From a virus, in IMG/VR virus record IMGVR_UViG_3300010370_000003, positions 1 through 42,854 of that record: a DNA stretch of 42,854 nt. One strand, given 5' to 3'. How positions within the stretch are numbered: the first letter of the stretch is position 1; each line of letters starts with the position of its first letter. The position numbers and the translations under genes are program-made. Shown in pieces: positions 3,540 through 22,656 of the stretch. The notes under the pieces are model-generated. The model was not told where the DNA came from. It saw nothing but the letters and a program-made list of their open reading frames with translations, and searched no databases.

Positions 3540-4337
3540 TCAGCCGTTGACGACTTGGAAGTCCACGTCAGGAAGACCCGACGACGTGCTGTCTGCGGCG
3601 ATCATCACGTACAACGCGGAGTCCGCATAGACCTGCAACAGCGCGCCGACGTCGATGACTGATTGACGGTCAAGGCCGTTAGCAATCGGCACGCGGCCCT
3701 CCGCGAGACGGCGCAAAACCATCACGTTGAAGGTGCCGACAGTCGCGACAGTGCCCTGCACGTTGGTGATGAGCTGCACGCCGCTGTCGCCCGATTGCAG
3801 CGGAAGCTGCCAGCAGCGGCCGACCGTTTGCGCAGCGCCAATGCCAACAGCGCTAGTCGTGCGCGAGCCCGTGCCGCCTTCGTTAGTGTAGGTGACGTTC
3901 ACGGCTTGGTTGCCAGTCGCAGCCGTGACTTGCTCGCACCAAATCTCGAGGCCCGCGTAGTTAGTGCCGGGCACACGCGACGAAAACGACGGCTGCGCAG
4001 TGAGCGCGGTGTTCGCGTTGAACGCATACGCGCCCGCGAGGAATAGTCGGTCGAAAACCGCAATACGGCATGCGACGGTGTTGCCGAAAGCAACGCGGCC
4101 GAGATAGCCGCTTGCACCACCGCCGAATGCGTTGAGCAGCGGATAGCCCGCCGTGATGTCAGTCGGCACGACACCAGCCGTCGTCGACGTGCCCGCAAGC
4201 ACGCCCGCGCCGGGCTGGCCTGCGATGTCATGCAGCGAAAACCAGCCGTTGGCGACCGTCGTGCGCGTCGCCGTCTTTGTCCAGCGGACGCGTTGCTTCG
4301 TGCTCGCGATGAGGCCGTCGAGAGTCGTGATTGCCAT
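3540..4337 (-). CDS. Putative virion structural protein
   Basis: A 265-residue protein with a short helical N-terminus (MAITTLDGLIAS), then Gly/Ala/Thr-rich beta sequence and a C-terminal segment of mixed helix and strand. No signal peptide, membrane helix or catalytic signature. It is one of five consecutive unknown proteins between the endolysin and the terminator, all of virion type. It may be a capsid or tail surface protein; I cannot name the family. Confidence 0.75.
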   Translation of the reverse strand: MAITTLDGLIASTKQRVRWTKTATRTTVANGWFSLHDIAGQPGAGVLAGTSTTAGVVPTDITAGYPLLNAFGGGASGYLGRVAFGNTVACRIAVFDRLFLAGAYAFNANTALTAQPSFSSRVPGTNYAGLEIWCEQVTAATGNQAVNVTYTNEGGTGSRTTSAVGIGAAQTVGRCWQLPLQSGDSGVQLITNVQGTVATVGTFNVMVLRRLAEGRVPIANGLDRQSVIDVGALLQVYADSALYVMIAADSTSSGLPDVDFQVVNG

Positions 4338-20725: not shown

Positions 20726-20769
20726 CGCTGCGATATGCAGCGGGACCATCGGCGGGAGTTGCACCCGCC
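20726..20769 (-). other. Two GC-rich hairpins in the leader of 20164-20703
   Basis: Within the 106 bases between the homing endonuclease stop and the next start there are two perfect hairpins: CGCTGC/GCAGCG around a 5-base loop (20726-20742) and GGCGGG/CCCGCC around a 7-base loop (20751-20769). Outside these, GACCAT (20744-20749) pairs with ATGGTC (20798-20803). No T-tract follows, so this is not an intrinsic terminator. It may stabilise or process mRNA. Confidence 0.6.
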
Positions 20770-20809
20770 ATCACGCTCGCGCGCGACTGCGACTCGCATG
20801 GTCTGTCGT

Positions 20810-21631
20810 CTATTCCGCGACCTCGATGTGCCAGCCGCTGATAACACAACGGCGCATCCGATAGGATTCGTAGAGGCTGCGATAACGTAGCCCGTGCTCC
20901 GACGCAAACGCGCGGAGGTCCGACGTCATGTACTTGGTGCCGTCTGGTCCCGTGATGACCATCGGCGGAAACTTGCGACGACGCATGGCACCGACGCGCG
21001 CGCGACGCTCTTCGCTCTGCGTGTATGCGCCTGCGGCCCGAGCTGCTGCAACGCGCTTCGCGATGTGCTCTGGCGATTGCTTGCGACCTGCGGCCGATAC
21101 CTTCGCAGCGTATTCCGGGTCGGCGTGCCGCGCCTTCGACGTGACTGCGATAGCGGCCCGCGCTTCGGGATGCTCGACGTAGAATCGCTGCAACGACTCG
21201 CGATGCTGCGCTCGTGCTTCGGGCGTCTTGGCGTCCCATGCCGACTGAGTACCAGCACAACGCCTTTGACGTGAGGCTTCAGGGTCACGATCTGCTGCGC
21301 CTTCGCGACTCGCCGCTTCGTGTCGAATGTTGTAGCAGCGCTTGCCGCGATCGTGCCACTTCGACAGGTAGAACTGTTCGCGTTCAAGCCTTTGCGCGCG
21401 ATCACCATTCACAACTTCAATGACTACAAAAACAAATGAATCGGTCCCGCACTTGTTGAAGTCAGCCTGTAGGAACCGGTTGGCGTGCTTGTTACGCCTA
21501 AGCGCAATTTCATGTTGAACAAATCGCTGCTTCAAAACCTTGGCAGACCCAAAATAAACACGACCGTTGGCCGTGTTTTTTATGCAGTAGATCCCGCTCT
21601 TTCGCGAATTGCCGTTGTATTCAGCCAACAT
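20810..21631 (-). CDS. GIY-YIG homing endonuclease
   Basis: A 273-residue free-standing homing endonuclease. The N-terminal catalytic domain shows GIYCIKN (13-19), VYFGSA (25-30) with the YIG-equivalent Tyr26, Arg36 in LKQRFVQH, and Glu85 in LEREQFYL. The C-terminal half is rich in HTH and NUMOD-like DNA-binding repeats (RHADPEYAAKVSAAGRK, SEERRARVGAMRRRKF, DLRAFASEHGLRYRSLYES). The start is ATG 21631, 7 bases after GGAGG; upstream codons lie in the hairpin described at 21638-21671. The gene sits between the capsid and connector genes and is richer in A and T at its 5' end than its neighbours, which suggests acquisition. Confidence 0.9.
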   Translation of the reverse strand: MLAEYNGNSRKSGIYCIKNTANGRVYFGSAKVLKQRFVQHEIALRRNKHANRFLQADFNKCGTDSFVFVVIEVVNGDRAQRLEREQFYLSKWHDRGKRCYNIRHEAASREGAADRDPEASRQRRCAGTQSAWDAKTPEARAQHRESLQRFYVEHPEARAAIAVTSKARHADPEYAAKVSAAGRKQSPEHIAKRVAAARAAGAYTQSEERRARVGAMRRRKFPPMVITGPDGTKYMTSDLRAFASEHGLRYRSLYESYRMRRCVISGWHIEVAE

Positions 21632-21637
21632 GATGAA

Positions 21638-21671
21638 ACCTCCGTGGCACGCCGAAGCATACCACGGAGGT
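21638..21671 (-). promoter_or_regulatory. RNA hairpin sequestering the endonuclease ribosome site
   Basis: On the minus strand 15 bases pair with 15 bases around a C(UUCG)G tetraloop. The outer ten pairs are perfect (ACCTCCGTGG with CCACGGAGGT) and the inner five include G-U pairs. The 3' arm contains the GGAGG that serves ATG 21631, so the site is buried whenever the capsid transcript folds. Three U residues follow, too few for a strong terminator. Translation from early or processed transcripts could escape the block. Confidence 0.85.
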
Positions 21672-21684
21672 AACATCTAACCGG

Positions 21685-22656
21685 CTACAAAATTCCGCCG
21701 TAGATGCAGGGCCACATCCCAGCCGCGTACTGGCCATCGGCGATGAGGCCGAAGGTCAGCGCGTCGTTCTGCATGACGGTCGGGCTGCTGAGGTCGATGT
21801 CGAGCTGCTCGCGCGGAGCCGCGCCCTCGACAAAGAACATGGGCTTCGCGCCGCCAGGGCCCTCGCCGACGAGGTACCAGTAGTCGTCCTGCGTGCCGAC
21901 GAGGCGCGGGTCGACGATGAGGTCGACGAGCCCGTTGTAGGCGTTGGAGACGCCAGCGCTCGCGACGACCGCTGCACCAGCCTCAAGGCCGGTGTTCGCG
22001 ACGCTGCGGCCACGGATGTCCATCTTCGTGATTTCCGAGCCGACGAGGCGGTTCTTCGGGCCGACGATGAGGTAACGCGGCACGATGCGGAACGGCTCGC
22101 CGTTCTCGCGCTGCAGCGACGTCATCGACGCGAACGCCGTGTCGAAGGTCAGCGGGCTGAGCGCGCTGGTGGTCTTGTTCGACTGGTTGCCCGAGGGACC
22201 ATTCGGGTGCGACGTCGAGAAGAGGTTGACACCGTCAAAGCCCACAGGGCCGTCGCCGCTGTTGAGGAAGAGGCCCTGATGCAGCACGTAGTCCTTGTAG
22301 GACTGCGCCGCGCTCATGAACTTGCGGACGCGCGCCGCGACGATGCCGCTGCGATCGTACTCGGCATCACGACGACGGACCTTGAGCTGCACGGCCCACG
22401 TGGTGAGCAGGACGTTGAGGCGGTACGCGCGGCTCACGCCGGTCTGGCGCGCGCCGTCGAACTCGAGCCAGTTGCCGAGGAAGTCCTCGAGGATGATCGA
22501 CGTGGTCGTGCCGCCGTCCGCGGGAATCGTCTCGCAGAGCGCGTTGACGAGGCCCTGATCGGCCGAGCTGGTGAACAGCTCGTCGGCCATGGTGCGGAAG
22601 ACCGTTGCGGCCGCGTCAATCGCGGTCTGATTGATAACGTGCGATGAGTCAGACAT
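21685..22656 (-). CDS. Major capsid protein, Mu gpT-like
   Basis: A 323-residue protein starting at ATG 22656 behind AGGAG. Features of the Mu gpT type are present: a helical N-terminus (IDAAATVFRTMADELF), the E-loop region with RRRDAEYDRSGIVAARVRKF, YKDYVLHQGLFLN, a central FDTAFASMTSLQRENGEPF, PRYLIVGPKN and a C-terminal DIDLSSPTVMQNDALTFGL. It forms the HK97-fold shell. It follows the decoration protein gene directly, and the transcript then enters the endonuclease hairpin. Confidence 0.88.
   Translation of the reverse strand: MSDSSHVINQTAIDAAATVFRTMADELFTSSADQGLVNALCETIPADGGTTTSIILEDFLGNWLEFDGARQTGVSRAYRLNVLLTTWAVQLKVRRRDAEYDRSGIVAARVRKFMSAAQSYKDYVLHQGLFLNSGDGPVGFDGVNLFSTSHPNGPSGNQSNKTTSALSPLTFDTAFASMTSLQRENGEPFRIVPRYLIVGPKNRLVGSEITKMDIRGRSVANTGLEAGAAVVASAGVSNAYNGLVDLIVDPRLVGTQDDYWYLVGEGPGGAKPMFFVEGAAPREQLDIDLSSPTVMQNDALTFGLIADGQYAAGMWPCIYGGIL

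Follow-up and report, generated by a model that had tools for sequence, protein, structure and literature searches.

Between the capsid gene and the homing endonuclease gene of the phage studied here is an RNA hairpin that probably serves as a cis-acting translational brake, carried with the endonuclease in a mobile cassette whose insertion site lies immediately after the capsid gene. This reading rests on the predicted fold, on compensatory changes among relatives and on the borders of the exchanged segment. The window, by which we mean the whole stretch of DNA that was analysed, comprises 42,854 nucleotides (positions 1 to 42,854 of IMG/VR record IMGVR_UViG_3300010370_000003) and contains the following elements.

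21685–22656, minus strand: gene of the major head protein (Mu gpT-like, 323 residues), directly upstream of the endonuclease on the same strand (PF10124, E 2.1e-13; phrog_371, E 6e-20).
20810–21631, minus strand: gene of a GIY-YIG homing endonuclease, 273 residues counted from ATG 21631, its nuclease domain resembling that of I-TevI (profile matches, homologue alignment).
21657–21671, minus strand: 5′ arm of the hairpin (anti-Shine–Dalgarno), ACCTCCGTGGTATGC (sequence, fold, covariation).
21653–21656, minus strand: UUCG tetraloop, C-G closed (sequence, fold; TTCG invariant in 4 of 4 lineages).
21638–21652, minus strand: 3′ arm of the hairpin, GCGTGCCACGGAGGT (sequence, fold).
21639–21643, minus strand: GGAGG, the Shine–Dalgarno sequence of the endonuclease, entirely within the stem (sequence; unpaired probability 8e-5).
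20807–21674, minus strand: exchanged segment (cassette) of hairpin and endonuclease (blastn breakpoints at 21675 and 20806 relative to L044).

The endonuclease reading frame matches Pfam PF01541 (E 1e-8) and the I-TevI catalytic domain (1mk0, E 3.9e-18), and its ATG 21631 aligns to a start methionine that is invariant across 19 homologues. Occupying nearly all of the 53-nt gap between the capsid and endonuclease genes is the hairpin, which in its RNA form reads ACCTCCGTGGTATGC-UUCG-GCGTGCCACGGAGGU (minus strand, 21671–21638). The stem is formed by 15 pairs, 13 Watson–Crick and two G-U, arranged as ten perfect outer pairs and five inner pairs that include both G-U pairs, and is capped by C(UUCG)G; beyond a 2 × 2 internal loop, three extra pairs, AUG/CAU, join positions 21676–21674 with 21635–21633. 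GGAGG (21643–21639) is followed by the seven nucleotides TTTCATC and then by ATG 21631. The initial annotation had described the 15-bp stem, its five inner pairs, the C(UUCG)G cap and the burial of the GGAGG of ATG 21631, and both sequence and fold agree with it on these points.

The isolated hairpin has a predicted stability of −31.8 kcal/mol, compared with a mean of −9.96 kcal/mol for 200 dinucleotide shuffles, none of which was as stable (z-score of −9.18); for the minus strand in a 161-nt context the z-score is −4.39. Neither strand of the window has a longer stem than this one among those of at least 11 pairs with loops of 3–8 nt, and about 0.1 stems of 15 bp per strand are expected in first-order Markov sequence of the window’s length. 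An Rfam search gave no family for the hairpin. An intrinsic terminator was considered and rejected, as the stem is followed by TTCATCATG, with no T run, and is absent from the terminator scan.

Searches of IMG/VR yielded 35 relatives for the capsid and 41 for the endonuclease, and the capsid–endonuclease hairpin was found in four diverged lineages, namely the window, L002/L046/L049/L050, L003/L004 (identical to L052/L054) and L005 (identical to L071). Their alignment (A3), a small sample of five distinct sequences from the four lineages, has 94.3% of cells paired and five pairs changed on both sides (compensatory), with a covariation score of 0.300 against a shuffled mean of 0.172, a value reached by 0 of 500 shuffles; controls with slid partner columns gave only 25–59% pairing. 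The outer stem varies on both sides and CGGAGG is fixed, and GGAGG with its 7-nt spacing to the ATG is invariant across the four lineages. In L003, the predicted fold closes the UUCG tetraloop differently. The sample is small and its direction clear: judged by this alignment, the pairing of the hairpin is evolutionarily maintained. A pattern scan for further hairpins of the window type returned known contigs only and none in bacterial genomes, in which no copy of the endonuclease was found.

The endonuclease is polymorphic for presence and absence at one site with sharp borders, as seen on comparison of the window with the endonuclease-free relative L044, whose capsid protein is 98% identical. 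The alignment of the two ends at 21675, at the base of the hairpin, and restarts at 20806, immediately past the endonuclease stop, with 34 nt containing an unrelated hairpin in L044 against 868 nt in the window. Endonuclease-free relatives have the same flanking genes on both sides, and the hairpin of L043 (capsid protein 99% identical), like that of L044, is unrelated to the window’s. L005/L071, with a capsid protein 52% and an endonuclease 66% identical, keeps the UUCG core in the form TAyGyTTCGGCGT...CACGGAGG, and in L003/L052 the endonuclease is 69% and the capsid protein 94% identical to those of the window. An endonuclease identity that falls below that of the capsid protein (L003/L052) or exceeds it (L005/L071) is as expected for a mobile gene and independent exchange. 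From these comparisons we conclude that the hairpin belongs to the exchanged cassette and that its sequence tracks the endonuclease, not the capsid gene.

Whenever a transcript includes the capsid gene, its anti-Shine–Dalgarno arm would be made first, and the stem would then fold (predicted at about −32 kcal/mol); in the predicted ensemble GGAGG is hardly ever unpaired. From the stable stem, the near-permanent burial of GGAGG, the maintained pairing and the joint exchange, we infer that capsid read-through mRNA supports very little initiation at ATG 21631, by which a potentially harmful nuclease would be held at trace level. Such a brake might protect the phage, time homing or spare capsid mRNA; the initial annotation had proposed that it protects capsid expression. 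In measurements of the de Smit and van Duin type, far weaker stems reportedly lower initiation by orders of magnitude. What endonuclease is produced would stem from occasional leakage, from reinitiation at ATG 21676, or from a shorter mRNA in which the 5′ arm is missing, whether through processing or through an internal start.

Hairpins that sequester the ribosome-binding site (RBS) have been described for I-TevI, I-TevII, I-TevIII, segB and mobE of phage Aeh1 (PMC2988022, PMC3014915). In T4, read-through transcripts of the early and middle classes are silenced by the hairpin, and those of the late class begin inside it and escape (PMC2988022, PMC3014915). The T4-like precedent invoked by the initial annotation is documented as far as RBS-sequestering endonuclease hairpins go, but the silencing of late transcripts that was ascribed to it is the reverse of the T4 arrangement. 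In the window phage the endonuclease gene follows the capsid gene, which is expected to be expressed late, so that the long transcript to be silenced would presumably be a late one, and the logic differs from that of T4. Deletion of the I-TevI hairpin cost T4 no viability or burst size except via td splicing (PMC3014915), and I-TevI binds an operator overlapping its own late promoter beside the hairpin (PMC2988022). Used as a control, the T4 I-TevI hairpin folded as described, with a late-promoter-like AATAAATA in its 5′ arm.

I-TevI of the T4 td intron, like I-TevII and I-TevIII, shares with the window element a consensus Shine–Dalgarno sequence, about 8 nt ahead of the AUG, that a stable hairpin sequesters (PMC2988022), and the window endonuclease has the GIY-YIG domain of the I-TevI family. 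Unlike these, the window gene is free-standing, behind a capsid gene and in a non-T4 phage, and its hairpin has a UUCG cap, a higher predicted stability and no late promoter that can be recognised inside it. Also free-standing and preceded by RBS-sequestering hairpins are segB of T4 and mobE of Aeromonas phage Aeh1 (PMC2988022, PMC3014915), which differ in belonging to T4-like phages and in having a late promoter near the hairpin, mobE being moreover of the HNH type. All published RBS-hairpin cases that we found are in T4-like phages, a matter of circumstance rather than mechanism, whereas the window phage, with its Mu gpT-like capsid, is not T4-like. By its predicted structure, the window element has the structural features of the T4 endonuclease RBS hairpins, outside the T4-like phages.

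More distant homologues of the endonuclease, from environmental phages (L008–L030 and L078–L113), are mostly 51–58% identical over the first 100 residues and sit behind PhoH-like, baseplate wedge and head–tail adaptor genes in other phages. In many of them a hairpin begins a few nucleotides past the upstream stop, includes the Shine–Dalgarno sequence and has TATATACT in its loop. The probability of the Shine–Dalgarno sequence being unpaired has a median of 0.011 for 29 endonuclease starts and of 0.41 for 157 control genes from the same loci (Mann–Whitney p of 1e-9, which overstates the evidence because the members are related). The relatives of the TATATACT clade resemble the window in the placement of the hairpin just past the upstream stop and in its holding the Shine–Dalgarno sequence; they differ in the loop, which is TATATACT and not UUCG, and in the insertion sites, at PhoH-like, baseplate and head–tail adaptor genes. 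Several distant homologues (for example, L094, L096 and L100) leave the Shine–Dalgarno site unsequestered, which counts against the brake. Covariation in the TATATACT clade was not above that of shuffles.

Common descent of the nuclease domain in the two groups is shown. Short identical words, GTTACCTCC and ACCTGCCCTC, at similar positions in window-type and TATATACT hairpins are suggestive of homology between the hairpins as well. That the control arose convergently, as the initial annotation had it, is unproven and not the reading we favour, given that the hairpin is exchanged together with an I-TevI-like endonuclease and that 50%-identical homologues elsewhere are also sequestered; yet nhmmer did not show DNA homology of the hairpins across the clades, a profile of the TATATACT-clade hairpins giving no match to the window hairpin, a failure that weighs against the brake too.

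A hairpin is also present directly past the capsid stop in 12 of 12 distinct endonuclease-free intergenic sequences, with stems that are mostly unrelated. Some of the selection may accordingly concern the capsid mRNA, which speaks against the brake and for a reading that we consider unlikely, namely that the hairpin is mainly a 3′-end element of the capsid mRNA (exonuclease protection or processing), the use of its 3′ arm as a Shine–Dalgarno sequence and the sequestration being by-products. In support of the same reading, the 13-nt arm GATGTTACCTCCG of the window recurs in the endonuclease-free L068 and L069, set in a 31-nt hairpin. For 7 of the 12 endonuclease-free hairpins, 0 of 200 shuffles were as stable, and for the remainder 5–10 of 200. 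The stems of the endonuclease-bearing lineages (4 of 4) are, however, longer and more stable, at −28 to −35 kcal/mol, compared with about −11 to −23 kcal/mol without the endonuclease, and a cassette hairpin stronger than the resident ones fits an added function. Opposed to the 3′-end reading are also the fixed distance of GGAGG from the ATG in all four of these lineages, the position of the hairpin inside the exchanged segment, and the sequestration found in homologues behind PhoH-like and baseplate genes. Besides its probable braking of translation, the cassette hairpin may also stand in for a capsid-mRNA 3′ element.

Endonuclease-free relatives with a resident hairpin in the slot include L043, L044, L051, L059, L060 and L070. 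At the insertion site of L068 (2157–2187) and of L069, the arm GATGTTACCTCCG lies in a shortened hairpin, ATTTCGGCGGTAACA, which is possibly a precursor or else a scar of endonuclease loss.

Overlapping the top of the 5′ arm and the first base of the loop is a further candidate element.

21656–21664, minus strand: candidate extended −10 element (TGnTAnnnT), TGGTATGCT, of a hypothetical internal promoter giving a transcript without the 5′ arm (alignment A3; conjectural).

This motif occurs at the same place in 4 of 4 lineages (TGGTATGCT, TGATACGTT and TGCTACGCT), the late promoter of T4 I-TevI occupies the equivalent place (PMC2988022), and a transcript beginning in the loop has a weaker fold, of −11.7 kcal/mol. 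These observations would suit a switch of the T4 type, in which the hairpin blocks long transcripts and a promoter in the stem and loop (21664–21656) yields a short transcript that lacks the 5′ arm and expresses the endonuclease. Such a switch would be an addition to the brake and not an exclusive alternative to it, and we regard it as doubtful. Because the invariant bases of TGnTAnnnT are also demanded by the stem and the UUCG loop, its conservation allows it to be named a promoter only hypothetically, and the motif has 15 occurrences in the window, counting both strands. The consensus scan found no sigma-70 −35/−10 pair in the hairpin, and this lack of an internal consensus site is a point against the brake as well. 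A T4 late promoter was rejected for the window phage, the T4 late motif TATAAATA being absent from the window; a search of the window record for T4 gp55 gave no match, in a weak test that detected no positive control. Quite unlikely is a dual-purpose element that combines the foregoing functions, with the cassette hairpin replacing a displaced capsid-mRNA 3′ hairpin, silencing the endonuclease and bearing in its stem an extended −10 promoter in place of the T4-type late promoter.

Upstream of the hairpin is a second possible start codon.

21674–21676, minus strand: alternative in-frame ATG, 8 nt past the capsid stop, reading through the hairpin (open frame; in frame in 2 of 4 lineages only).

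This ATG begins an open frame, and the same layout is found in L046/L050/L002, which would permit translational coupling: ribosomes ending at the capsid stop would start again at ATG 21676 and translate the hairpin as well, adding 15 residues to the protein. We hold this to be distinctly improbable, as L003 has no equivalent of ATG 21676 and L005 has one out of frame, the homologues begin at a methionine equivalent to that at 21631, and no Shine–Dalgarno sequence lies at normal spacing upstream of ATG 21676. Highly improbable is a role of the inverted repeat as DNA, either as an operator for self-repression by the endonuclease, after the I-TevI operator that overlaps the late promoter beside its hairpin (PMC2988022), or as part of the homing site, since G-U pairs and a UUCG loop are features of RNA and not of perfect DNA symmetry, and the hairpin sequence is missing from the endonuclease-free alleles and so is not a shared target site.

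Translational braking thus remains the preferred reading of the hairpin. Endonuclease hairpin brakes are known from T4-like phages, in which they have been seen as part of the T4 temporal programme. The window would present a predicted brake in a phage whose capsid gene is of the Mu type; this brake would be linked with the mobile gene and not with the phage that hosts it, a link that appears to extend, in looser form, to a family of nucleases resembling I-TevI. If this is true, portable RNA brakes would let selfish genes settle beside essential, highly expressed genes. Natural alleles are available both with the cassette (the window and L002–L005) and without it (L043, L044 and L068).

In the wider family, about 18 homologous endonucleases (L008–L030, alignment A4) have TATATACT or a near variant in the loop of their hairpins; elsewhere in those genomes it is rare. 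By analogy with the late promoter of T4 I-TevI, whose place it takes, TATATACT may be a diverged promoter or operator. It was rejected as a promoter in general use by the homologous phages, CTATATACT occurring just 0–3 times per record and TATAAATA being not clearly above the reversed control. Another motif, gTAAAAC(CTG/GTT/GCC/GTC)(C/A)CCTC, recurs directly past stop codons in large phage contigs, on both sides of the endonuclease as well as at other places (L010:852; L012:2958 and 3970; L020:2958 and 4034; L018:3809; L026:2960 and 3894; and the contig of L011). It has eight copies in a 260-kb contig, against one for the reversed control, and may act in those phages as a promoter or regulatory motif between genes.

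Beyond the endonuclease stop is a second structured RNA.

20741–20804, minus strand: conserved tRNA-like RNA element of 64 nt, a neighbour outside the brake, past the endonuclease (or the capsid gene) and before the next gene (covariance model R1, covariation).

The element is composed of an acceptor-like stem, a short D-like arm, a middle stem capped by a tetraloop, and a T-arm with the 7-nt loop UGCAAYU. Of the 35 sources searched with covariance model R1, 27 have one strong copy at this slot, and several of the remainder end before reaching it; compensatory changes back the acceptor-like and T-like stems. No Rfam family matched at threshold, the only matches being weak ones to Tymo tRNA-like and twister-sister, and Mu-gpT-DE (RF03012) gave no match to this downstream RNA. 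Copies elsewhere include L043:4004–4067, L059:4011–4067 and L060:4014–4076, among others. It is a reasonable guess that this is a tRNA-derived mRNA element, for example a putative RNase P processing site.

In L005, the slot directly past the endonuclease stop holds a full tRNA-Met(CAU) gene (2525–2598), and in L003/L004 (L003 at about 3838–3885) an apparently truncated tRNA with the normal T-loop UUCGAUU; these forms are apparent stages in a conversion from tRNA to the tRNA-like element. The gene past the element has its own Shine–Dalgarno sequence, GAGGAG, which falls within the loop region of a small UUCAUC/GAUGAA hairpin (window about 20727–20703, minus strand), preceded by a conserved GCTGC...GCAGC hairpin.
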